Origin: Owenia fusiformis
Lineage: Eukaryota; Annelida; Polychaeta; Sabellida; Oweniidae
DNA length: 64,000 bases
Direction: 5' to 3'
NCBI GenBank assembly: GCA_903813345.2
Contig: CAIIXF020000009.1
Location: 498,001 to 562,000, forward strand
The notes under the pieces are model-generated. The model saw only the letters and a program-made list of their open reading frames with translations. It did no database searches and had not been told where the DNA came from. Shown piece by piece: positions 24,001-62,149 of the stretch. Each line of letters opens with the position of its first letter. Position 1 is the stretch's first letter. Both the position numbers and the translations under genes were made by a program.

Positions 24001-27000
24001 GTCTGTCCGGGCTTGTCTACACTGCTACAGGTTTCAAGCCAAATCATTTCAGGGATTCATTTGAAATTATCAGGGATGTTTCTACCCATAAGGTGTCACT
24101 ACGGTAATTCATTGAAAAATATTGAAAAAATTTACAAAATTCAAGTTCTGGCCGGGGTACATATCGCCATTTTCGAACGAATTAACCCATACAATGACTA
24201 TATTTCTGTGTTCCCGTATACAATAACCTTCATCTTGAGACTATATTTAACATAGGGTTTGCGTCTCGATTTTTAAATATCACTACGCCAACGTAGAGAA
24301 TTATTTTTAGGTAAAATCCCTGCTTTACCCATGAAAATTAACGAATAAAGTAGTTCCAGTTTGCGGGACTATATTCTTGCGATTTGTTTCTAAGAATTGT
24401 ACATTCAGAAAGTACTTGCCCTCAGCTTTACATGAATACCTAACCTGAAATGGCCACACTACATGCACTTGAACCTACTATACACACCACCCGGAATCCT
24501 ACCCGGAAGTGGTATTTAACGTAGTGACACCTATGAACGGTTAGAACTTAGATTTTTGGCAGTCTGGACAAATGTTAAAGTGTCCATTTTGGATTTTCCG
24601 TCCTAATTTCTTCTCTGTCGAGGCTTGTCTACAGTTTTCCAGCCAAACCGTTTCATGGATTCATCTGAAATTTCAGGGATGTTACTACGTATGAAAGCCT
24701 AGAACTGATCAAATGGGTCATTTTGGATTTTTCTTCCTAATATATAGAAAAGCCGTCCGTCCATCCGTTCGTATGTCCGGGCAATAACTCAAATACCGGT
24801 TGACGGATTTCATTCAAATTTTATAGGCTTATGCCTTATGGGTGTAGGACCTCCGCTCGAGAGGAAATTTTCAATATAGCTGCTAAATTTAAAATGGCGA
24901 CCATTTTTCGAAAAAAATATAATCTTTGCTAACTCTAATACTAGTGGATGGATTTGGTTCACATCTTATATGCTGTTGCCTGGGTAAAAAGAGCCGTGCT
25001 CAAGAAGACACTTTTAAGATGGTCACCATATTTCAAAATGGTGGCCATTTTTCGTAAACAACGTTATCTTTGATAACTCAAATACCATTGAATGGATTTG
25101 GTTCAAATTTTACATGCTGATGCCTAGGGACATAGGAGCTCTGCTCGAGAAGGAATTCTCAAGGTGGTAGCTAATTTTCAAAATGGCTGCCATTTTTCAT
25201 AATAGAACGTAACCTTTGATAACTCAAATACCGGTTGATGGATTTGGTTCAAATTCTATATGCTGATGCCTAGAGACAAAGAAGTTCTGCTCAAGAAGAC
25301 ATTTTAAAGATGGCTCCTGACTATCAAAATTTTCGAAAAAAACGTAATTATTGATAACTCAAATACCAGTGGATGGATTTGGTTCCAATTTTATATGCTT
25401 ATGTTTAGGGTTTCTGCTTCAGAAGAAATTTCAAAGGCGTTAGCTGAATTTCAAAATGGCTGCCATTTTTCATGAAAAGGGTAATCTTTGATAACTCAAA
25501 TACCATTGGACGGATTTACTTCAAATTTTATATACTGATGCCTAGAGATAAAGGAGCTCTGCTTGAGAAAAATTTTCAAGGTGGCTGCTATTTATCGAAA
25601 TCTCCGCCATTTTTCACTAAACATGTAATCCTTGATAACTCAAGTACCAGTTGACGGATTTGGATTAAATTGGATTTGCTAATGCCTTGAGACATAGGAG
25701 CTCTGCTAAAGAAGAAATCTAAAGATGACAGCTGAATTTCAAAATGGCAACCGTGTTTCATAAAAACATAATCTTTGATAATTCAAATACCAGTGGATGG
25801 ATTTGGCTCAAATTTTATATGGCCGCTATTTATAAAAACATGTTTTGTCCGGTGGGATTTGCTACTCTGTGGAGTTGCTATTGTTCTAGTTTGTCATTGT
25901 CTTCTGTCATTTCATTTCCCCTAAACCTGTATTACTTCACCACCAAGGTGACACACTGTTATGATGTCCAACTTCTTTGTGAATTGTGTTGGGCGGTCGG
26001 CGTCAATTCTTGTAGCAAATGTAGTGACATTTTACATGTCAATGTCCTGTAGTTTTATTTTGGTCTGATTATTCTTGTCAGTTGGTACGAGAGATGATGA
26101 AATCCATGGTATTTGCATTCTTAAAATCCGTCTGTTACTGGCTAAAGTAACCTAGATTGCTGTTTTACCGTTGTTAGGTATAGTGAATAAATCTTTTCCT
26201 CATCGGCATTGCCAATGTTTGATTAGAATCAAATTGTGACTTGGATAGTGACTTGTCCCGGTACATATGCTGTAGGCTGTTTGCATGCATTCCATGTCTC
26301 ATTATTAATTCGACTCGGCCTTAATCCACTCCATCTCATTTAAGTATTGCCAAAGGTGTTTAACATATCCATGCCATGCAGTCCTCAGTTTACTAGAGAA
26401 TCCAGATTGCCCAAAGCAAGCACATGCACTTGTTTCGAATGCTTTTTCATTTTTACTTCCTTTGTTATTCTAATTAGTGCTTGATATATTGTTGTAATTA
26501 TACTCAGAGATAAATTGTTACATCATTCCTTTCGATGTGATCGATGTGCTAAATGAAGAATGTCTTTATTAGGAACTGGAACTGAGGCTGGGGATCCAAT
26601 AGAAGCGAGAAGTGTGGGGATGGCAATAGCAACAAAACGTCCAAACGAATTCGGTCCTTGTCCAGTTGGATCAGTTAAAACAAATATCGGGCATACAGAA
26701 TCTGCAGCTGGTGTAGCAAGTCTCATAAAGATTCTACTAATGATGAAATACAACACAATTGCACCTACCATCGTGTTTAACAGGCCAAACCCTAACATTG
26801 ATTTTGTAGCGCTAAATATACGATTGCCGACAGAGGTCGAAGTTTGGACCAAGCAGAATGACAAACCACGGCTCGCTTCACTGAACTGTTACGGATTTGG
26901 AGGAACAAACTCTTTTGGCGTAGTTCAACAACACATCCAAGAGGAGGAGTCAATGAGTCATATTATGGAGCAAGAGATTGTTGTTCTTTCAGCCAACAAC

Positions 27001-30000
27001 ACATTCTCTCTAATGGAATCCATTAGAGACCTTTTAGCATGTCTAAATACAGTGGATATGAAACTTGAGCACTTGGCATACACATCAACAATCAGACGTA
27101 CACACTTTGATAAAAGGATTGCTGTCGTAGGAGCTGACATTGCAGAGATAAAGAAAGGACTGGAAGTACGATTGGACAGTGTTGATGCTGTACATATACG
27201 AAGGGAAAGGCTAAGAATAATATTTGTATTTTGCGGAATGGGGACACATTGGGTCAGTATGGGTGTTGAGATGCTCACAAACCACGTAGAGAGTGTTTTC
27301 TCACAAACTCTCTTGATTGTTGATCAGCAAATTTCGAAGCAAGAAGGATGGTCATTGATCAACAAGCTGAAAACCAAAAGTGATTTGTCTGAGCCGTCAA
27401 TAGGTCAACCAGCAATATTTGCAATACAAGTGGCACTTGCACGACAGTGGATTGAGTGGGGGATCAAACCAAGTCATATAATAGGTCACTCTGTCGGAGA
27501 GGTAGCAGCGTGTTGTATCGCTGGAAGACTCTCTTTGGAAAGTGCCACCAATGTAATTGTAGCACGAGGAAAATGTATCCAGGAAGCAGGCGGGGGTGGA
27601 ATGCTAGTTGTTAGCAACTACGAAATCGAAAATATAAAAAGAGAGGCCGAAAAAATTGATTTGGAGATTGCTGCAATAAATAGTCCAATATCGTGTACAC
27701 TGTCCGGAGCAAGGGACAATGTTTCAGCAATATTGGATCAGCTCGATAGCATAAAACAGGCGGAAAATGTCAACATATTTTTGCGAGAGCTGGATGTTTC
27801 AGTTGCTTACCATAGCAAATTCATGGATCCTATCTTGGGAAAACTGAAAAGGGAATTGCATGCCATTGACTTAGATGCTCCAGAGGCTAAAGAACCGAAT
27901 CCCCAGCTCATTTCATCTGTTACTGGTTTGGCTGTAACTGAAAATGATTATGTCAAACCCGAGTATTGGCTGCAAAATGTACGACAGACTGTATTGTTCC
28001 GGGAAGCAATGGGTGCTGCAATGGATTCCTCGTGTCACAACCTTATTTTAGAGGTCGGACCACGGCCAGCTCTAAGAAAGAATATCCAAGACAACATTGG
28101 ACAACATCCTCATACTATTTTACCCTCATTCAGGCCAAACAAAGAATGGTCAAGCCTGATGGCGTCCCTGGGACGAATGTATGAACACGGATTGGATATT
28201 GATTGGGAAAAGGTATCTTCTTCCCAACATACTCCAATTCCATTTCCGAGGTACCAGTTTAAAAGAAACCATGTTAAATATTACCCAGACGTGGCAGAAT
28301 CAATTTACAAAACTGGGGAAAAGGGAATATTTGGTAATGTACAAACGCATCCATTCATAACAGGTGGTCTAGATGGGCAACACTTTGTGTGTGATGTAAA
28401 GATAGACAAAATGCCATTTGTATTTGACCATAAATCATCGAATAGGATTCTTGTTCCCGGTGCAACATATGCAGAGCTAGGCATTAGCTGCTCTATGCTT
28501 TTTGACAAAAGACTCGGTCTTTCAGAATGTGTATCATCCTCAGTGAGGTTTCTTAGTCCATGCACACTTGAGAGTGAGAGTGCTACAACTAAACTCGACA
28601 TACACATCTCATCTGAAAAACCTGATTTTGTGTCATTCACAATCAGCTCTGAAAAAAACAAACATGCAATTGGATCAACAACGTTTTCTGATTGCTACAT
28701 AGGTGAAACAAACATCGACGTTAAACAAATAGAAGCCAGATGTCCAGATGAGTATGATGGAAATGTGATGTATGAACAATTGGAGAAATACAAGTTCACT
28801 TATGGACTGAGTCTGAGAGGAATAAAGAGCTACAAAACCAATGGCAATGAATGGCTCTTACAATATTCAATGCCAGAATCTGTTGTGGATAGCAAGGATA
28901 GGATGCTTATTCACCCAGCAGTCCTCGATAACATCCTTCAAGCCCTGGCACTTGTGCCAGAAGATGGTGAAACTGCATTTCCTTTCGAAATCAGAAAATT
29001 GACAATTAGAAAAAGTTTACCTTCCGAGGCTCTCATCTATATACAATCTGAATTGGTCCAGGAGGATCGCATCGTTTGCCATGCAGCACTGACGACTGAG
29101 GTTGGAGAGGTGGTCATTGAATGCAAAGATATAACATTAAAGCTACTCACAGGAAAGCAAATATCTCACCAGGTGGACGTTTCGTACTCTGTATATTGGG
29201 AAAAGTTGCAAAATCCAGACAATAATTCAGAACATGTGTCACAGAAATGTCTCATTCTCAAAGATCCAACAGGAATAATGGAGAAACTGAGACCGTTTAT
29301 CAATTCAGACTCCACATTCATCTCTCCCCCTACAGCAGATTTATACGAGGACTTCATTTCTAATAGTCAGTCTTTAGAAAACATTCTGAATTGTCACTCA
29401 GCCTCGTTGAACAGATACGATTTGGTCATCTTTGCCTGGGGAATTCAAGATGTAAATGAAATTAATGTTGCATCAATGATGGATGAAGTTGAAACCCCCA
29501 TTCTATTTGCATGTTCAGCATTGAGACAGCTTGTCCAGTGGCTTTATAGAATGTCCCCCGAGACTCCCCTCTACATCGTAACTAATGGTTCGCAGGTCTT
29601 TCCCGATCGGAAAGGACCTATTAGTCTTTGTGGCAGTTCCATCTGGGCAATGACTCGAACTCTTGCAAGAGAAAAAGTCTTTAATAATCTCTTCCAAATT
29701 GACTTATCCACTGGAAGTGACTTTGAAGTTGAAAGTCTCAGTAGCCATATAAACAAAGCACCTGACCATCCTGAGTTGTTATATAAAGCTGATGACGTTT
29801 ACGTCAATCAAATCAAACCATATGCTAATCGCTCAGTTGAACATCGATTGCCAATCTCAAACATCAACAACACCAAGAGAGTACTCATATCCGCTGCTTC
29901 TGGGAAAATAACAGACCCGACCTTTATGATCCAGTATCAAAATTGCCCAACTGGATTAAGCAATTCTGAATGTTTAGTATATATCGATTCATTTAGAATA

Positions 30001-33000
30001 TGTAATAGTGGTCTCTTTGGTCTTGTTGATTTGAATGCCATAGTTACAAAACCATGGGGAGTATCATCAAACAAATACGGCTACCCTGTCAATGCAATTG
30101 ACTTCATCGGCCATGCCAAAATCCAAAAAACAAACAAATTTGAAAAGGTTCTTGTTTGTTACCCGCATGTTGTTGAGACAACTCTCGTTGCTCCTAGGAG
30201 TTGTGTTTTCTCTTTGAAAAAGATTCCATTTGAGACGGGGTCGCTTTACATTTCTATGTATGTCATCTGTTGGAATATAATAACCAAGCACCTTAAACTC
30301 AAACACGGTTCAGCCATTTACATGTCAGGGTTTGAGCAACACAGGGATTTAGGTCACCTCTTATGTGGTCTTTTAGAAGCATCTGATATACAAGTTACAA
30401 CTAATGTGACCAGGACAAGCCATGCAATCATTCTCGTCGATGGCCATCTTGACATGGAGAAAATCCAATATATGCAAAAGGCCGAAACGGTCAAGCAAAT
30501 TGTTCTGATAGAAACAATGAATTCAACCAAAAACATTGATATCTTGTGCCAGGCTTTCAGACACAAATCTGAAATATCTGTTCTACAAACGAATTTGGTA
30601 CTCAGTCCATATAACTTACAGAAAACCCTTAAAAAGGTAATCGAGTGGACAAAGTCTGTAAAACTATTTCAAAATCCACTTCCCATTCACAGACTTGAAG
30701 CACAAGTTGACTTTGATGCCCTCAATAAGCCTGATCTTGACAGTAACGCCATATACATCTGCAACCTACGGCGATATCCTGCATGTAGTTCCTCGGGACA
30801 GAGAAATAATCATCTCGGAAAAAAATGGCAACCTGATTCAAGAAACAGTATCACTGGGCAATTTGACGGATGTATGACTTCAACATGTGATATGACGAAA
30901 AAAGAACTCCTGAACCACATACAACAAACTACAGCCATGGAGCAATTGGAACATGAACATCAAGGTCTTGGAGAATTCGCGGGTCATTGTTTCCCAGTTT
31001 ATGTAGGAAAAGATCAACTATTCCGGCCCGATGCAGCTTACATTCACATTGGGAGTACAAACGGACTCACCTCAGAATTGATGAAGCACATGGCAATGAA
31101 GGGAGCTGGATATCAAATTATTCTATCGAGGTCTGGGGGAAATCAAACACAGGATATGTTGAATATTGAAAGGGAATTTGGTGTCAAAATAATCACCATC
31201 TCTGCAGATGTAACGAAAATTGAAACACTGCATCATGCAGTTGAACATTTTTACAAGATTCACCCAGACGTACCAATAAAAGGAATATTTAATGGAGCAG
31301 TCATCGTGGAAGATGGACCATTGACAATTATGGATGAGATTCGATTCCAGAGAGCAACAAAACCCAAAATCAAGGGCTCTTGGAATCTTCACCTGCTGTC
31401 CTTGGATATGAATCTTGATTTCTTTGTGATGCATTCTTCAATGGCATCTATATTTGGAAATCCTGGTCAGAGCAATTACTGTGCTGGTAATGGTTTCCAA
31501 GATGCCCTATCACTTTTCAGACGGCATCATGGGTATCCCTCGTTGACGATTAACTGGGGGGCAATGGATTTGGGAACCCTGAAGAGCAATGAGAAAGTCC
31601 AAAGGATGCTAGAGAAGGATGGTATAAACACGTTGGATGCTAACTGTATTGCTGAATGCTTCGATTTTGCATTAACAGCAAATCCTGAACAAATCACGTT
31701 TGTAAATGCCAACTGGAAGAAAATATTCAAATCAAGGCTTATAAAGGTAAGAAATATCTGGACCAGATTTGAGGACTTGATGAAAATACATTCTCCAGAA
31801 ACGTATGATGCAATTTTGAAAGGTGCCCATAATCAGACCGAAAACGAATTGATGGCTGGTGATGTTACAGAAGCAACTGGAGTACGTGTAGAGCTGAAAA
31901 GACTACTTGCAAAATTAGTTATGACCGACGAAGACGAAATGGATGACTCAACATCAATTCTCGAATTAGGAATCGACTCGGTAGTTGTTGTTGCCCTTCA
32001 GTCAGAAATATCAATCACCTTTGGCGTAGATATCCCTATAGTTGACTTGCTGAATGAAACTACGACTATTTCACAACTAGTAGAAAAATTAGGTGGCGAC
32101 TCTGATGGTGTCAAGAATATTCACGAGGTCAACATATACGACACAATCGGTCCTCATAATCGAACAAGAGATTTGTATAATGATGTCAAATCTAATGGCG
32201 CTCTCGAAGGATCTAGCTTTAACTCAACTGGCGAATCAAGTGTCATTCCTTCAGTTAATGGCAATTCTAATTCACCAGGTGACGTTGCGACAACGTCCCA
32301 TTCTACACAGGACAAAGAAGTGACCATTCGTGAACCCATGCACATTCCTTTTAGAAATCGCGATGGAAGGCCAGCCCTGGTATACCACAATGACCACATA
32401 ACTGATCATCAGAATCTGAAGGGATTGAACCTTGATTTACCGACTCTCGAGAAAGGTATACAATAATCCAAAACACAGTTTCTTGTTTTGTTAAAATGGA
32501 TCGGGGTTCAATTTTGATCTATTAAAACTATCTCAAAGTAATTAATTACGTATTTACGTAGACAGAAGGTTTAGCTTAACAGATTTTCAGAAAGCTGTTG
32601 TCAAGTACCATAAGCCATAAACCACATGTTATTCACCGATGTGGTCAATACTTGTGTCAGAGGTCTGGATCAATGACTCTGCAGTGTTAATGTACTGATA
32701 TAATTGTTCTAACGAACAAATGCATGCGTTTATTTTCTTAGGTGATGTCTTTGACAAGAAAACACGACATGGCTTGAAAAAGAAAAAACAGGTGGTGCTG
32801 AAAGTTATTAGGGATGCTTCAATGGATTCCATCGTATATGCAATATCATGGAACAGTAGAAAACATGGCCTGGTTCTTATATCCGAACTAACATCTGTGA
32901 AATATAGAACCGATGAAGGTACATAATGACAATACTATAGTATAGTACTTTAAACCTTATGTAGGTAACACATTGAATGACATGAACAGTTAGAAGCTGT

Positions 33001-46683: not shown

Positions 46684-48622
46684 CAGGGCGTTCAGTAAGT
46701 AAAGCTAATTTTGCTCTCAAACTTTTATTTTTTGTCATTTATCTTTCAAATTTTCAGTGAAGAAGCATTTGACATTTTTCTAACTACCCTGAAAAATTAA
46801 ATAAGATATGATGAATAATAGCAAAACAATGGTTGTCATAGTAACGTGAATATGGGTTCTGCGGAGCAATTTCTTACTTTAATAAAAATGTTATAATACA
46901 ATGAAATTGATTAAGATTAATGCTGCATATGTCTTTGTTTGCTATGGCTGAAAGTCACGACAAACATAACAACAACATACACAAATATGATACCATGGCA
47001 ACAGTAGTCTATGACATCACAGACAGATGATACAACAGATGGAATGATCCAGAATGATCCATCAGACACTGCTCCATGACATCATCAAAATCATGGCTGC
47101 CAGGATTGCCAATGGAAGCAAAATGAACAATGAAATGAAACAACAATTGAGAAGTAGCATCAGATACAATGTGTTGCTAGGGAAATCCAAGCAGGATACC
47201 ATTAGGGATATCCAAAAAGCATATGGGGACAGTGTGCCTAAGTACACAATCTACAAATGGTATCAGAAATTCCGCAAGGGGAGAAAAACAACAAGTGATG
47301 AGCCAAGGTCAGGGAGGCCAAAACTTCTAACCAAAGAGGCTAACATGAATCATTTGAGGCAATTGTTAGATGAAGACCGCAGTATAACTGTTAGGGAACT
47401 CTCAGAACTAGATCTAACCAATATCAGCCTAGGATGGGTACATTATCTGATTCACAATTCTCTAAATATGTCCTTGGTGTCTGCGAAATGGGTACCAAAG
47501 AATCTGACCGACGAGCAGCGTAGAAATCGCCTGGAAGATTCAGTTGCATTCTTGCGCCGTTACAAAGATGAGGGAGATGACTTTCTAAACAATCTTCTCA
47601 CTTGTGATGAAACTTTTGTTCGATACTTTGAGCCAAATAGTACAAGACAGAACAGTGCGTGGCAAACAAAGAACTCTCCAACACCCGTGGGGATCGTTGC
47701 AAAGCTAGCTCTTGGAGCATCAGCGGGGAAAGTCATGTTTATCATTTTAAATAGACATCGAAGGTCCATTGTTGGCTCATGCCGTGCCAGAAGGGCAGAC
47801 TGTTAACAAGGAATATTATGCCATGGTAATTACATTTTATGAAATATATCTTTCTAATAATTAGCTTGGTTTGAGTACTAGGGCTACCTCTAAAATAATA
47901 CAAAGAAAACATTTTAACTTAAACATCAAATGATCAAATTCACATTTCATTTTCAGGTGCTGCGGCGCCATCTTGTGAACGCGATTCGCAAGAAGGACTC
48001 TCAACTCCTACATATTCCATCAAGATAATGCGCCATCGCATAGGTCGCAAATGGTGCAGGATACTATCCAGAAAAAGCTGGAGATGGAGGTTCAAGGCCA
48101 GTCAGCGTATTCTCCTGACAAGGCACCGTGCGATTTTGGGGTATTTTCATGTTTGAAAAATGATCTGCGTGGTAAGATCCACGCAAATATCCATGAGCTT
48201 CAGAATGCCGTTCAACGTTCGCTGACAAAGAACTTTCCAGATGGCTTCCACAGGATATATCAGAAGTGGATAGAACGACATCAGCTGTGTGTGAAAGCTA
48301 AGGGAAACTACTTTGAACATGAAATAGAATGCTAACTTGAAAGTAGAAATGTGGAGTAGCCACAGAACTATGGTTGAAATATAGACAGGGCAGAAACTAA
48401 CGTTAACAAAATCTACTATGCTGTGAACTTATAAAATTGCTCCGCAGAACCCGTATTCGCGTTACTATGACAACCACCATTTTGCTGTTATTCATTATAT
48501 CTTGATCATTTTTTCAGGATAGTTAGAAAAGTGTCTGATGCTTCTCCACTGAAAATTTGAACGATGATAGACAAGAAATAAAAGTTTGAGAGCAAAAGTA
48601 GCTTTACTTACTGAACGCCCTG
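46684..48622 (+). mobile_element. Mariner-type transposon with ~190-bp terminal inverted repeats
   Basis: TIRs at 46684-46871 and 48434-48622, both starting CAGGGCGTTCAGTAAGTAAA and extending to GTTCTGCGGAGCAATTT. TA flanks at 46682-46683 and 48623-48624. The TIRs are long for mariner, where about 30 bp is common. It carries one decayed transposase gene. Confidence 0.9.
47054..48335 (+). pseudogene. Mariner transposase, broken by two frameshifts and a 131-bp intron-like insert
   Basis: Cut-and-paste transposase. N-terminal HTH region (IRYNVLLGKSKQDTIRDIQ; SGRPKLLT), first catalytic Asp in LTCDETFVRYFEP (about 47608). The frame shifts near 47750, after which DIEGPLLAHAVPEGQTVNKE follows at 47754. 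At 47826-47956 a GT...AG segment of 131 bp separates EYYAM from VLRRHLVNAIRKKDS. A further shift near 48003-48009 leads to YIFHQDNAPSHRS (second Asp) and AYSPDKAPCDFGVF (third Asp). I count 35 residues between the last two Asp, one more than the mariner DD34D standard. Not functional as read. Confidence 0.88.
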
Positions 48623-49670: not shown

Positions 49671-49825
49671 TTAGTGCTCATATAGGGAGGGTGTATTCTG
49701 TCTGGCACACTTCACCATTGATGATAACAACTTTACTAATCCAGTATCTTTCGGCTTTTCCAGTCCCCGCATCACACGTTGCTTCATGACGGAGACAAAC
49801 TCCTTATTGCTTAACTGCCCGTCAT
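49671..49825 (-). CDS. MICU1: MICU1 last exon (canonical EF-hand and C-terminus)
   Basis: Acceptor TTTTTCTTCAG (minus strand) precedes 49825; stop TAA at 49671-49673. Phase 1. Encodes (N)[18 protein letters not shown], then [20 protein letters not shown] and [11 protein letters not shown]. The residues after KPKDTG differ from vertebrate MICU1 at the very end, as expected for a variable tail. Confidence 0.92.
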
Positions 49826-55800: not shown

Positions 55801-58800
55801 GAAAAGAGATAACTGCGTTCTAATGAACACGTATGTGTTTTCATTGTGGACTTACAACCCAAAAACATATGAGCAGTAAAGAAGCCATCTTCAGATGTAG
55901 ATGTAGATATTTTTCAAATTTCTCATATTCATCTGGAACTGAACATTTACACATTTTATGTGATAAATACAGAGACGAAGAATTGAGAGCTATGTAAACT
56001 TGAACAGTTAATGTTTTCTTTATGGACTGACAACCAAATGAAAGACCTCAATATAAGGCAAGGTACTGTAGGCATAAACAGTGTCTACCTTCTTCGGGCT
56101 TCCTTACTTTCTTATCTGGATTGAAAACCTCTCATGTAACATAACACAGAGAAGAACATTACGTTCTCTGTACATGATGTCTTCTGATGGTCTAATGACC
56201 CCTGTGAAATTGTCATTTATATATGACAAATTGTCTGGAAAAAGGTCAATTGTACACTAGAGACCTTTTCCATATGCTTACTATAATCTCATGTCGGGAC
56301 TGAAGACCCTATATGGAGTAAGCAAAGATAAAACGAACGAGGTAAGATCTTCGACATTTTATATATCAGATGTTTTCTTTGTGGACTAACAACCCAAAGA
56401 AAAAACCTTGAAAACTTGTCTTATAGTTCCATATGATCTATTTTCCTCGTCCTCTTACTTTCATTTGTAACTGATGAACCTGTAGAACAACTAACTTCCT
56501 AGTTCCGTGTCCATAGTCACAAGTTAATTGTAAATTTATTGCGATTCTAAAATTTCCGACTTTACAGAAGGAAAATGGCGGAATAATTGAGGAATATCCG
56601 GGCATGTGTGCGGGGGTGCACAGTGTAATATGCTCAAGAAATTCCCGGGAAGTTGGCCATAGATAGATTCAATGGTGGATGTTAGCACATAGTGGCAATA
56701 TTAGTGTAAGTAGTAAAGGTTTGCGTAGTAAAAAGATTGGGTTTGTTTGACCTATATATCATAATACCTCTTTCTAATTATCCTTTTCATTTTCAAAACG
56801 CTAAAGTGAGAAACAAACAAGAAATTATCAAATTTTGTAAGATCAATAATTGTTAAATACAATGACATCATTTTAAAAAACAAATCGAACAAAGATTTCA
56901 GTGTTGTACAGCTTTAATATACTCTAAAATGAAATACAGCATTATTATAGCTTTTATGTTAACCCAATTCCTATTGGTTAATTTCTAGCAAGCTCCTGGA
57001 AATCTGGCCAATGAAAAACCTCCTACCTTCTCATCAATCCATGGGACAACTCTGTTACCCCAAGCATTCCCTAACATTTTCAAAAATGTTTTAGAAAGCT
57101 TCATTTCCCGAGGACGGGTGAAACCAAATGTCGCATGAGGCTTCAATGCAGACATGAAGGCTTTCCCAGACAATTCATTTGTGTCTAAAAAGGCAGCCAA
57201 ACATTTGGATTAAAATAGAATAGTGAAAAAAAGGGTGACTTGAATCAGATGTATAAGATGTATAAATAATGTAAAAAGGAAAAAAGAATACAGAAAAGAA
57301 GCTCAATACACTACAATGCAGTGACGAAATAGTACACATCAGAAATTCTAAAATGCAGTCAAATCTGAACTATTAACAAGCCAGACAGAAATATAAATCA
57401 TAAAAATATTCTAAAGTAAAATCTGTAAGAGCTAAACACAAATCAACTTAACAATGTGATGATGAGGCTCAGATTAAAACTAGATAATGGCAACTCCGCG
57501 GAGTAGCAAATCCCAACGAACAAAATATCAATTACCGAATTCCAATCAATTTTACTCATTACTTTGGTTAAAATTGAAAAATTTAGATTTTAGAATTGCG
57601 AATTCCTGCAAAGCAGTCATTTTGAATTTTCTGAGGTACAAATCTGAAAAATAATAGCATAATTGTGATCTACTCCAAAATTCCTTCAATTTGAGTATAA
57701 TATAGCCATACTTTGAAGGGATCGAAAAATGATTGCGAAATTGTACATTAGATGGCCATTTTGAATTTCACGAGGCTCGAATCAGAAAAAAGATACAATA
57801 TTTGCAATCTACTCTTAATTGCCTTTCATTTGAGTATAATAAAGCTATACTTCAGAAAGATCTAAAAATTAGCGAAAATTTCTGTTTTCCTGACCCCCCA
57901 TACACAGCCCCTGGGGGTCAGGATGAAAATCAAGGAATATATGTGAAAAAGATAGATGTTGCGAATATACTACCAACATTTCAAACAATAATATAATTAC
58001 TTTGGTTTAGAATGAAAAATTTATGATTTTTGCGAAAAAGTCCCGTCATTTTTAAAGCGGCGGCCATCTTGAAAAATTTTTTTTTGTGTAAAACTATTCA
58101 TCAATATACATCTTTCCACCAAATATGAAGAAAATCTGTCTGCTAATATTTGAGTTATCTTCCGGATGGACAGACGGACGGACGGACGGATGGACTGACT
58201 GACTGACGGACTGACAGACTGACAGACGGAGGGCTTCACTATATCCCTACCGAACTTCGTTCGTTGGGATAAAAATGATGAGATTAAGGGGAGTAGCAAG
58301 GGCTTAAATATTGCTAAGGCAATAGTGGAGACAATTTCACCCATGAGTTACAATATTTACATGTGCTACTTACTATCCTCATCAAATATGGTGAACACAA
58401 CGTTTACAATATGGTCACTGAGCGTTACATGGGCCACTGTAGAAGCTACATGTTTTAAGGTGGCTGAAATATAAAAAATATTTAAATTGAATTTTCTAAA
58501 AAGTAAAATGTATTGATACGCTTGTTAAATTCTCGGCATGAATAAGTTGCTTTGGTAAAAGACAAGACGAGGCATGATACAATCCATAAAGGTTTTAAAA
58601 GGAGTTATTATATTATTTTCTTTGAAAGTATTTCTTGTTCAATATTGAAGGTACCGAGTCTTTAGAGCATTTTTTTATTATTTATTCAAAATTCTGTATT
58701 TGGATTCATTTTAGATTGCTTCTTAACAGGTAGCTTCATCTGCAATTTTATGTACAAGAGAAAATTAATTTATAACTAACCTCTAAATCATAGTAACAAA

Positions 58801-59060
58801 AAATAGTTCACATAAAGCCATCCAATATAATTCAATTCAAATGCAGTTCTGAGGAACATAGTAGTTACCACCCAACCAACCCCCCCCCCCACACACACAC
58901 CCTCCCATCACTCCCCCCACACCCTCCCATCCCCCACACCCTTCCTCATACCTTGATCAATTGATGCTCCAGCTACATGATAGAAAGTCAATGCTGTATC
59001 AACATCATTGATGCTACTCAACAAACTGAAGAAATCCTGGAACTCTCTGAAGGATATTCC
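49671..59060 (-). CDS. MICU1: Mitochondrial calcium uptake protein 1 (MICU1), 3' part, three exons
   Basis: Calcium-sensing gatekeeper of the mitochondrial calcium uniporter, acting in the intermembrane space. Minus-strand exons 58952-59060, 58374-58463 and 49671-49825 join in frame. Exon A encodes [20 protein letters not shown] and [16 protein letters not shown]; exon [21 protein letters not shown] and FDED; exon [21 protein letters not shown] and GLEKPKDTG. The join [12 protein letters not shown] makes a complete 12-residue EF-hand loop (D, D, D at 1, 3, 5; G6; E12), split by the last intron. The [13 protein letters not shown] tail is diagnostic for MICU1 rather than MICU2/3. 5' exons (signal, first EF-hand) are not found up to 64000 and probably lie outside. 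A possible alternative last exon is at 56985-57184. Confidence 0.9.
49826..51103. other. MICU1 last intron, 3' portion
   Basis: AT-rich intron sequence. 'Atagtaccaaa.atcat' words repeat at 50340-50420. No gene recognised. Confidence 0.5.
51104..51396. mobile_element. Foldback with 63-bp arms enclosing part of the large element's end
   Basis: Arms 51104-51167 and 51335-51396 are almost perfectly inverted (TTAGTAAACCATACTTACCT and its inverse). The 167-bp loop (51168-51282 part) matches the inner right end of the 5.3-kb element at 56573-56690 in inverted orientation. It abuts that element's left end at 51397. Confidence 0.75.
51397..56734. mobile_element. 5.3-kb hairpin-rich inverted-repeat element in the MICU1 intron
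   Basis: Left end TTTTACTACGCAAACCTTTA...CACTAATATTGCCACTATGT at 51397-51442, inverted at 56694-56734. The right end continues the match inward to 56573 with the adjacent foldback. The interior has no convincing protein. It is crowded with short perfect hairpins, for example AATCAGAGAC/GTCTCTGATT (55202-55233), TTTAGTCAT/ATGACTAAA (52885-52918), TCTGACATT/AATGTCAGA (51800-51842), GATGAAGAA/TTCTTCATC (55645-55668), CAATTTTT/AAAAATTG (53911-53938), ACGAGAAT/ATTCTCGT (53346-53362). A stem-loop word 'ttttc.ttgtggact.acaaccca' recurs near 55837, 56012 and 56378. Confidence 0.75.
56735..56984. other. Possible 3' UTR of the alternative MICU1 terminal exon
   Basis: Downstream (minus strand) of the TAG at 56985-56987. 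The word ATTAAA, a common variant poly(A) signal, occurs on the minus strand at about 56915-56920. Otherwise plain AT-rich sequence. Confidence 0.3.
56985..57184 (-). CDS. MICU1: Candidate alternative terminal exon of MICU1 (EF-hand loop lacking key ligands)
   Basis: Minus-strand acceptor GGCTGCCTTTTTAG precedes 57184, followed by an open frame of 65 codons and TAG. It is in phase 1, the same as the canonical last exon. Joined to exon B it gives [19 protein letters not shown], then [20 protein letters not shown] and [12 protein letters not shown]. This lines up with canonical [27 protein letters not shown]...LVKLLSSM. The loop has T, N, A where the canonical exon has D5, G6, E12, so calcium binding by this EF-hand should be lost. 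It lies between exon B and exon C on the same strand. A donor (AAG/GTAGGA at about 57023) exists but would join exon C out of frame, so a terminal exon is the simpler reading. No transcript evidence. Confidence 0.6.
57185..58373. repeat. MICU1 intron with degenerate repeats and a GGAC/GACT microsatellite
   Basis: 57490-58000 holds two to three diverged copies of a ~170-bp unit ('ttttgaatttc..gaggc', 'gatctactc.', 'tttgagtataat', 'gccatactt'). 58168-58230 is a GACG/GACT/GACA tetranucleotide run. TCCCAACGAAC at 57511 is inverted at about 58259. No gene. Confidence 0.65.
58374..58463 (-). CDS. MICU1: MICU1 penultimate exon in the window
   Basis: 90 bp, acceptor ATATTTCAG, donor GTAAGT after GATGAGGATA. 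Reads (A)[18 protein letters not shown] then [11 protein letters not shown], the helix and first loop residues of the C-terminal EF-hand. Phase 1 at both borders. Confidence 0.92.
58874..58945. repeat. C-rich tract (G-runs on the MICU1 sense strand) next to a donor site
   Basis: CCCCCCCCCCCACACACACA followed by repeated CCCTCCCAT and CCCCCCACA. On the minus (transcribed) strand these are many GGG runs, 7 to 78 bases downstream of the donor GTATG of exon 58952-59060. Confidence 0.9.
58952..59060 (-). CDS. MICU1: MICU1 exon upstream of the EF-hand exon
   Basis: 109 bp, acceptor ATATTTCAG, donor GTATGAG. Reads [20 protein letters not shown] then [16 protein letters not shown], matching the MICU1 block '[15 protein letters not shown]'. 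Phase 0 in, phase 1 out. Confidence 0.92.
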
Positions 59061-59533: not shown

Positions 59534-62149
59534 TTTTTTTTTTTTAATTTTATTTATTTATTTATTTATTCATACATATTTCAACATCAATGTACAGTAA
59601 ACGGGTGACACTTCTCGTGTATATTCCCGTGTTTATAAACAAACATGAAATGTACAGATTGGGGATCTGCTTGTGTGATGAATGCTACTATCTATGTCTG
59701 ACTAAGAATGTGTCATATAATGCCCACTATAGTTAACTGAAATTGATATTATTGATTGATAAAATATTTTTTCAATTCTTTTTTCATAATAAAAATACTT
59801 CCAGATGATGTTATTTCAATAGGTAATGATTCCAAATTGATGGTGCAGTAAAAGATATCAAAGCTTTTCCATAATTTGTTCGAATTTTGGGTTTGTCATA
59901 GTTTACCCTATTTCGGGTGTTGTAAACATGTCTCTCTTGGATGGTACTGAAGAGGTTTGGAAAAATTTTATGATAATTTGGAGTTTATTAATCCATTTGT
60001 ACATGAAAAGGCATTTCAACTGCTTATTAATATCAAATATATTCAAAATGTTCAGTTGTTTGAATAGGGGAAGGGAATGTGCTCTGTAGTTACTGTTTGT
60101 TGCAATACGTGTAAATTTTTTCTCCAAAATATGAAGGGAGTTTAACAAACCACTACCTGCTTCACCCCAGATAAGATTGCCATATATCAAATAAGAGTAA
60201 ATAAGGGAATAATAGATGCTCAAGAATGCTTTATCATTTAACAATTGTTTGACCCTATATAGAATACCAATGGTTCTGGAGATTTTAGCATTTACGGACA
60301 TAATATGACGTTTCCAGTTTAAGTTTTGATCAATTTTAATACCAAGAAAATTAATGTTATCAACCTGCTGAAGCTTCTTTTTATTAAGATAGATGTTTAT
60401 GTTATTTGCATTATATCTTTTTTGACTCGGGGTGAAAATAATATATTTTGTTTTAAGTGATAATTTATTAGTGATAAGCCACTCCTCTATTAGTTTTAGT
60501 TCAGTATTAAGAATATCAGCAAGTTCAGTTAGATTTTTACCTTTTATCAATAAATTGGTATCATCCGTGAATAAAACAAAAAACAATCGTGGAGAAGAAA
60601 GGTAAATGTCATTTATGTACAGAATAAAGAAAAGTGGTCCAAGAATTGAGCCTTGAGGGATTCCGCACGTGATAAATTCAGGCTCAGATAAGGTATTGTT
60701 GTAAAATGTTTTCTGAATTCTGTGTGTAAAATAGCTTTTGATCCAACTGAGCGCAACACCACGAATGCCATAAAATTCAAGTTTACTAAATAGGATGTTG
60801 TGATCAATTGTATCAAAGGCCTTGGAAAAATCAAGAAACAATCCAATGGTAAATTCGCCATCATCAATCGCTTTTCTAATCTTTTCAATAAAAGTTAGAA
60901 CAGCCATTGAAGTCGATCTTTTTTCCCTAAATCCAAATTGGTTAATGTACAAAATATCGATAGAGTCTATGAATGTAGAAATTCTATGATGCATTATTTT
61001 TTCCAGGATCTTGGAGAACACGGGTAAAACTGAGATTGGGCGATAATTAGTGAAAAAATGTGCATCATCTTTTTTGTATATAGGAATAACTTTTGCTATT
61101 TTAAGCCGATCCGGGAAAATTCCGCTTTTAAGAGAGAGATTAAAGGTATGTAAAAGAGGATGGTGAAATAACAATCCACAATCTTTAATGATAAAAGGTT
61201 TAAAATCATCATGTCCTGCTGCAGAGGGTTTTAAGTTGGTAATTATTTTATTCAATTCATTTGCTTCAACGGTATCTAACAAAAGAGTTTGAGCTTGTCT
61301 TCCTATTGATTGCATAAAGTCCAAAGAATTTCTATTTGATTTTGGTATTTTACTTGCTAATTTTTCACCAACCTTTACGAAAAAATTATTAAATTGATTA
61401 GCTATTTCTTGTTTATCAGTTAATTCAACATTATTATGAATAAAAGAATCTGAAATATTATTATTTTTATTTTTCCTCTGGAGTATCTGATTAATTATTT
61501 GCCAATTTGCTTTTATATTTCCCTGATTATGTTCAAATTTGTTATTGTAATACTGCTTTTGTGAAAATTTTATTGTGGTTTTTAGCTGATTTGCAAAAGA
61601 TTTATATTGCTTTTTATTTTGATCGTTGGGATTTCGAAGGTATTTTTTGTAAAGTTTGCTTTTATTGCTAATTGATTTAAGTATCGCTGATGTTAACCAT
61701 GGCTCGTATTATTATTATATAATTTGATCGTGACTTGTTTTAAAGGGAAACATTCATTGTAGAAATTTGACACCTTATCTTCAAACTTATTATAAGAATC
61801 ATTTGCATTATTGACATTAGTAATATCATCCCAGGTGTCATGTGAGAGGAGTTCTTTGAACTTTGATATATTTTCTACTGTATATTTTCTTATTGATCTT
61901 TTTATAAATTTAGTTTTGTTGATAGGCTTATTAGAAGTAGCAAAAATTGGGAAATGATCTAAGGTCAGGTCTCTCTTTAGTTTTTAGTGCACCATCAATA
62001 AAAAGAGCGGTCCCCCCTCCCCTGGTAGTACGAGATTTGAAAAAAAACTGATAATTCATGAAGTTAGAAAATGAGTCCTCTTGATCCTTATATAGCCAAG
62101 TTTCAGAAAGTGCAATAATAGAAATTCTCTTGTCAATTGATGCTAAAAA
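59534..62149 (-). mobile_element. Non-LTR retrotransposon (LINE), 5'-truncated, with 9-bp target duplication
   Basis: TATTCAATA flanks it at 59525-59533 and 62150-62158. The 3' end on the minus strand is an (AAAT)n/A-rich tail (59534-59572). The 5' end begins within the endonuclease domain (ISIIALSETWLYKDQEDSFS at about 62110, RTTRGGGTALFIDGAL), then jumps with a frame change to DLTLDHFPIFATS. Much of the central endonuclease is therefore deleted. Confidence 0.88.
59903..61708 (-). pseudogene. LINE reverse transcriptase ORF fragment
   Basis: Open from EPWLTSAILKSISNKSK near 61705 to the stop at 59903; tandem TAA stops in a TTA-rich microsatellite cut it off upstream. RT blocks in order: VIPIYKKDDAHFFTNYRPIS, NQFGFREKRSTS, LFLDFSKAFDTIDHNIL, GIPQGSILGPLFFILYINDI, then LFTDDTNLL (catalytic motif, usually F/YADD), thumb NKLSLKTKYI, and C-terminal ILYRVKQLLNDKAFLSIYYS. 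The RT core itself looks intact; the element is dead because of its endonuclease and 5' end. CR1/jockey-like. It sits inside MICU1 or between MICU1 and the Mab-21-like gene, in the same orientation. Confidence 0.88.

Follow-up and report, generated by a model that had tools for sequence, protein, structure and literature searches.

The mutually exclusive EF-hand exons of alpha-actinin, reportedly described by Waites in 1992, are a pair of internal exons. Calcium sensing exchanged by exon choice has precedents in alpha-actinin, in P/Q calcium channels and in OGDH, as set out in the part of PMC9177970 that deals with it, where EF-hand splicing of the cytoskeletal alpha-actinin is described as limited to chordates; calcium affinities of ACTN1 are given in the corresponding part of PMC4435478. 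The sections on OGDH in PMC7969005 and PMC9177970 describe duplicated exons, 4a and 4b, through which a mitochondrial calcium target exists in one form that is sensitive to calcium and another that is not. Alternative splicing of MICU1 itself is described for mammals in the pertinent text of PMC8909990, and is also named in that of PMC10853796: cassette microexons give rise to MICU1.1, MICU1.2 and MICU1.3, and MICU1.1 and MICU1.3 alter the calcium response of the uniporter. As for invertebrates, the Drosophila section of PMC6506686 presents two isoforms, MICU1-A and MICU1-B, both of which rescue the mutant. Among the matches listed from the open-licence literature on splicing, isoforms and contacts, none of the excerpted texts describes a duplicated terminal exon of MICU1.

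The locus described here lies in a stretch of Owenia fusiformis DNA, 64,000 nucleotides long, which was analysed as a whole and is referred to as the window. It contains a candidate second terminal exon of MICU1, which may be compared with the systems above. As in alpha-actinin, a pair of exons would swap part of an EF-hand region, with the difference that here the protein is mitochondrial and the exon is terminal and lies beside a poly(A) signal. OGDH shares the duplicated exons and the mitochondrial calcium target, whereas its exons, according to the same sections of PMC7969005 and PMC9177970, are mutually exclusive and non-terminal and concern a DADLD site rather than a classical EF-hand. 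The mammalian MICU1 variants arise, in the account of PMC8909990, from very small cassette exons (one inserting EFWQ behind residue 181, another TE), and they concern neither EF-4 and the C-helix nor a duplicated terminal exon. With a probability of roughly 0.6, we consider the candidate to be an alternative terminal exon that gives a MICU1 with a dead EF-4 and an altered C-helix. If it is used, exon-swapped calcium sensing, as in alpha-actinin and OGDH, would extend to the mitochondrial gatekeeper.

The MICU1 gene and the candidate terminal exon

A 476-residue human MICU1 sequence was used as the tblastn query, and three MICU1 coding exons were found in the window, all on the minus strand; the remaining matches were weak, with E values of at least 1.4 (matches were reported up to E 20), and EF-1, the other canonical hand, was absent from the window in this search. 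The first of the three (58952..59060) corresponds to approximately residues 358-393 of human MICU1 (59% identity, E 1.6e-10), is entered in phase 0 and left in phase 1, and has AG/GT borders. The 90-bp penultimate exon (58374..58463; 59% identity, E 4.5e-5) is in phase 1 on both sides and ends at 58374 with the donor GATA/GTAAGT; in the joined frame it encodes the E-helix of EF-4 and positions 1-3 of its loop. The coding part of the canonical last exon (49671..49825; 67% identity, E 1.6e-13) completes the joined frame with ...SLYEH-stop. When joined, the canonical exons match human MICU1 with an E value of 1.4e-27 (phmmer).

An earlier note on this DNA had claimed a 200-bp open segment with an acceptor between the penultimate and last exons, in the phase of the last exon and with its own stop, and such a segment was indeed found at 56985..57184 on the minus strand, within the last MICU1 intron and 1.2 kb past the penultimate exon. 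The acceptor GGCTGCCTTTTTAG directly precedes 57184, and phase 1, that of the canonical last exon, fits. The segment holds 65 full codons and a split N codon, and the joined frame is open over 66 codons (...RPREMKLSK...FPGAC) up to the TAG stop at 56987-56985, with no frame damage. The canonical counterpart reads ...KPKDTGLVK...LYEH-stop. The EF-hand is continued and the helix following it can be aligned in the joined frames, RPREMKLSK against KPKDTGLVK, which agrees with the earlier reading.

A canonical EF-hand loop has its ligands at positions 1, 3, 5 and 12 and a glycine at position 6, position 12 being a bidentate ligand. Comparison of the two EF-4 loops bore out the changes claimed beforehand, D to T at position 5, G to N at position 6 and E to A at position 12, and revealed two more, Q to E at position 7 and N to G at position 10. 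D1 and D3 are kept in the alternative loop, which nevertheless departs from the rule of ligands at 1, 3, 5 and 12 with Gly at 6; the leucine at position 8 and the phenylalanine following the loop are unchanged. Further downstream, R440 is replaced by H, R443 by F and C463 by N (463 being a count on the human sequence of 476 residues), K438 is retained, and all four residues are present in the canonical exon. Neither these replacements nor the nearby poly(A) signal described below figured in the earlier note.

Similarity to the canonical last exon

To place the resemblance on a common scale, frames that follow AG sites in the same phase were scored against the canonical last exon by anchored, ungapped BLOSUM62 comparison on both strands, which gave 4,122 AG-led frames of at least 8 residues (2,014 on the minus and 2,108 on the plus strand). 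The true exon scored 260 against itself, the candidate 57, and the next best frame 23. Against human MICU1, the anchored score of the candidate was 53 and that of the next frame 18. The best anchored stretch extends over 38 residues without a gap. Altogether 14 of 51 residues are identical between the alternative and canonical exons, with different codons at 12 of the 14, and codon positions 1, 2 and 3 match at 25, 22 and 11 of 51, respectively. The contrast of first and second against third positions (Fisher 0.0002-0.0024) is taken as support only, since sites chosen for high identity give a similar pattern.

When the alternative residues alone were compared with the PDB, no MICU protein appeared up to an E value of 10, and two PARN chains were matched at 0.79 and 1.5; hence the case rests on the anchored comparison. 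An AlphaFold model of the alternative exon was poor (pLDDT 51, a two-helix outline only) and was given no weight. Judged from its sequence, the segment 57184-56985 very probably arose by an old duplication of the last MICU1 exon. A scan of viral and prokaryote contigs with the joined canonical exons yielded no relative of MICU1, nor did one of prokaryote genome contigs with the alternative exon. One match of the alternative exon in a viral contig (L001:4902-5201), KMLGNAWG, lies in a long open frame that by eye resembles a phage structural protein, and is probably due to chance.

Selection and decay

The main rival explanation is a relict exon, that is, a duplicate which was formerly used under selection and lost its use recently, so that the broken EF loop represents decay; we regard this as unlikely, if a serious contender. 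Several observations are what such a relict would leave behind. D5, G6 and E12 of the EF-hand are gone, and the joined alternative protein touches three Pfam EF-hand models without reaching the cut-off in any of them, its best score being 14.8 bits against 28, compared with 33 for the canonical protein. Residues conserved in the family are not clearly preferred: 10 of the 28 residues common to human and canonical MICU1 are kept in the alternative exon, as compared with 4 of the 16 others. The length of the open frame is no strong argument either, because 66 open codons in the same phase follow 7 of the 486 AG sites of the intron, the candidate included.

The comparison of synonymous with non-synonymous change, which the earlier note had proposed, was run pairwise. 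The codon model gave an omega of 0.016-0.024 for the alternative against the canonical exon, dS being saturated and not estimable. An omega of about 0.5 is expected if one copy is neutral and the other constrained; it was rejected in favour of lower values, with 2dlnL of 12.5 when the first 32 codons were used, 9.2 with 41, 10.5 with 45 and 8.3 with 51, in a test that presupposes homology and uses a stretch chosen for similarity. Neutral change was also simulated with today's last exon as the ancestor, using substitutions only and the same divergence at codon positions 1 and 2. Out of 3000 neutral copies, 68 were open over 51 codons, one reached the score and none did both, and the softer measures were reached more often (identical residues in 2.3%, positives in 6.5% and GC in 9.3%). 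With stops forbidden, the anchored score was reached by 1/4000 copies, the full-length score by 7/4000, the number of identical residues by 99/4000, that of positives by 533/4000 and the GC content by 524/4000. The score thus argues against neutral change, while positives and GC do not.

The decayed duplicate, which the earlier note had named as the alternative outcome, is disfavoured by the codon model and by the score-based simulations; the positives and GC, which lie within neutral reach, speak for it. The relict also has to account for an acceptor, a phase and a frame that are all intact and for the presence of a poly(A) signal; moreover, by the codon model and the simulations based on the score, much of the divergence took place under selection. 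The duplicate was very probably once selected, and these comparisons suggest to us that past selection maintained it over a large part of the period since it arose. Codon usage, trained on a 5.9-kb polyketide synthase exon of the window, was tried as a further measure; the alternative exon scored 0.059 per codon, a value also attained by two of the 87 open stretches of non-coding sequence. It was given no weight because MICU1 exons also score near zero (the canonical last exon -0.016 per codon), and synonymous-only codon usage gave no signal.

Splicing and polyadenylation signals

As far as signals alone are concerned, those of an alternative terminal exon are in place: an acceptor, an open frame with a stop, and a poly(A) signal. 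The acceptor region (57185..57310, minus strand) is rich in pyrimidines and contains five YCTTTT motifs, with starts from 57299 to 57193, out of the 15 present in the entire last intron. The pyrimidine score of the alternative acceptor equals that of the canonical one, a level found at 57 of 545 AG sites. The GC content is 0.43 in the alternative exon and 0.45 in the canonical exon, compared with 0.31 and 0.24 in the flanks, and 1.4% of 200-base windows of the intron are as high. The poly(A) signal ATTAAA (56913..56918, minus strand) starts 67 nt past the alternative stop and is followed by the T/G-rich TTTGTTCGATTTGTTTTTT. It is the first of nine AATAAA/ATTAAA hexamers that a transcript meets in the 8,548-bp intron, and the sole one with a downstream 12-mer containing at least 11 T/G; the threshold (11/12) was set after the sequence had been seen, which makes the corresponding chance figure of 0.9% post hoc. 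The patterns used for RBFOX and MBNL motifs had no match on this strand of the last intron.

Some of these signals would equally serve an exon that is used without acting as a coding switch, either as an internal, poison-type exon or as a trap for early polyadenylation, with less full-length MICU1 as the result. The poly(A) signal itself fits such a trap. Furthermore, a donor-like GAGAAG/GTAGGA lies within the alternative exon (57025..57029, minus strand); the last exon base would be 57027, and joining it to 49825 would continue the frame by a short MTGS before a stop. We nevertheless hold this explanation to be improbable, as protein similarity has been retained despite saturated synonymous sites, which points to a translated product.

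Origin of the probable duplicate

A last exon that strayed in from another MICU-type gene copy, instead of a tandem duplicate of this MICU1, would explain the deep divergence (the 14 identities in 51 residues) and the two residues, E427 and M451, at which the alternative form agrees with human MICU1 and the canonical exon differs. At four other residues, however, the alternative exon is like the canonical one where human MICU1 differs, and strand, phase and place all agree with a local duplication; tblastn found no additional MICU1 exon beside the alternative exon in the window. When joined to the penultimate exon, moreover, the alternative exon finds its best PDB match in MICU1 (E 1.7e-10), ahead of MICU3 (9e-4) and MICU2 (0.25), to which the shared exon contributes much. 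A stray copy is in our opinion very improbable.

Chance similarity in an open stretch, suggested by the shortness and low identity of the match, by a nucleotide identity at codon positions 1 and 2 of 32/64 against 30/64 at the best unrelated of 3,114 minus-strand AG sites (identity by nucleotides alone being insufficient to detect the candidate) and by a smaller contrast in local alignment (57, with 35 as the highest value among frames other than the two exons), is hardly credible given an anchored protein score far beyond the null; in 200,000 shuffles, moreover, the alternative residues never reached 57 or 53.

Proposed mechanism and its meaning for the uniporter

From these results, a hypothesis may be put forward in which the last MICU1 exon was duplicated in tandem long ago and the copy acts as an upstream alternative terminal exon. 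Joining 58374 to 49825 would yield the normal protein; with 58374 spliced to 57184 instead, and with cleavage past the ATTAAA at 56918, the transcript would terminate early and encode a second form. We infer that this second form is expressed; it would be identical to normal MICU1 as far as position 3 of the loop in the fourth EF-hand and would then carry a loop that lacks D5, G6 and E12, for which no calcium binding at EF-4 is expected. It would also lack the counterparts of R440, R443 and the C-helix cysteine and have a longer tail with a terminal cysteine. Such an isoform could still pair through its unchanged upstream parts. With EF-4 unable to switch and the anchoring of the C-helix altered, the uniporters that hold it might respond less steeply to calcium, and we would guess that the subunit is less responsive to calcium. 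The fuller version of this hypothesis, in which an old and selected pair of terminal exons supplies a normal gatekeeper and an EF-4-dead form with a different C-helix, so that tissues could adjust the calcium threshold of the uniporter, and how it is assembled, through the choice of splice and poly(A) sites, is put forward tentatively and at somewhat less than even odds.

The earlier note had proposed a switch between calcium-sensing and calcium-blind MICU1. A homologous second terminal exon with an EF-hand loop broken at key positions is well supported; its use and a switch of this kind are putative. 'Calcium-blind' proved too strong a term, as EF-1 would be unchanged: being common to both forms, it would leave at least one of the two calcium sites in place. 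Considering also the C-terminal changes, the product is better described as EF-4-dead with altered C-terminal contacts. The retained leucine at position 8 and the phenylalanine after the loop suggest that the alternative hand may fold like EF-2 and EF-3 of MICU1, which are treated as non-binding in the structural literature.

The residues concerned have been discussed in the literature. In the human EF-hand mutant presented in the relevant passage of PMC7434445, E432, which equals loop position 12, was changed together with residues in both hands. R440 and R443 belong to a proposed MCU-binding patch (the DID residues, among which K438 is also counted), and their direct role in tight binding is doubted in the passage of PMC6347451 concerned with it. 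The C-helix cysteine is tied to disulfides between MICU proteins in the corresponding part of PMC7055370; the alternative exon, which is without it, has a terminal cysteine of its own. In the blocked complex, as described in PMC7442490, the C-helix rests against the membrane with EMRE subunits on either side, and the structural account in PMC7895871 reports that the C-helix density is not optimal and that MICU1 contacts EMRE and not MCU directly. If the exon is used, it would provide a natural MICU1 in which one of the two calcium sites and the C-terminal contacts are replaced, and it would permit direct tests of EF-4, R440/R443, the cysteine and the C-helix in uniporter gating, which is a debated matter.

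Other elements in the window

Within the last intron, between the penultimate and alternative exons, lies a 761-bp element (57510-58270) that contains internal repeats and has inverted ends of 15 nt (ATCCCAACGAAC...); it looks like a non-autonomous DNA transposon. Upstream of exon 59060, an open frame on the minus strand (59903-61708), probably within an intron, has a reverse transcriptase domain (Pfam RVT_1) and is LINE-like by eye. Past the end of MICU1, the region 47048-48335 of the plus strand contains two open frames; the second has no Pfam match at 1e-5 and by eye resembles the rest of a broken mariner-like transposase, and the first matches the HTH of Mos1-type transposases (Pfam). Finally, a 1,969-codon open frame on the plus strand (26557-32466) contains the Pfam ketosynthase C-terminal, acyltransferase, dehydratase, ketoreductase and carrier-protein domains and, by these domains, belongs to a gene for a synthase of the polyketide or fatty-acid type, the exon being very long.
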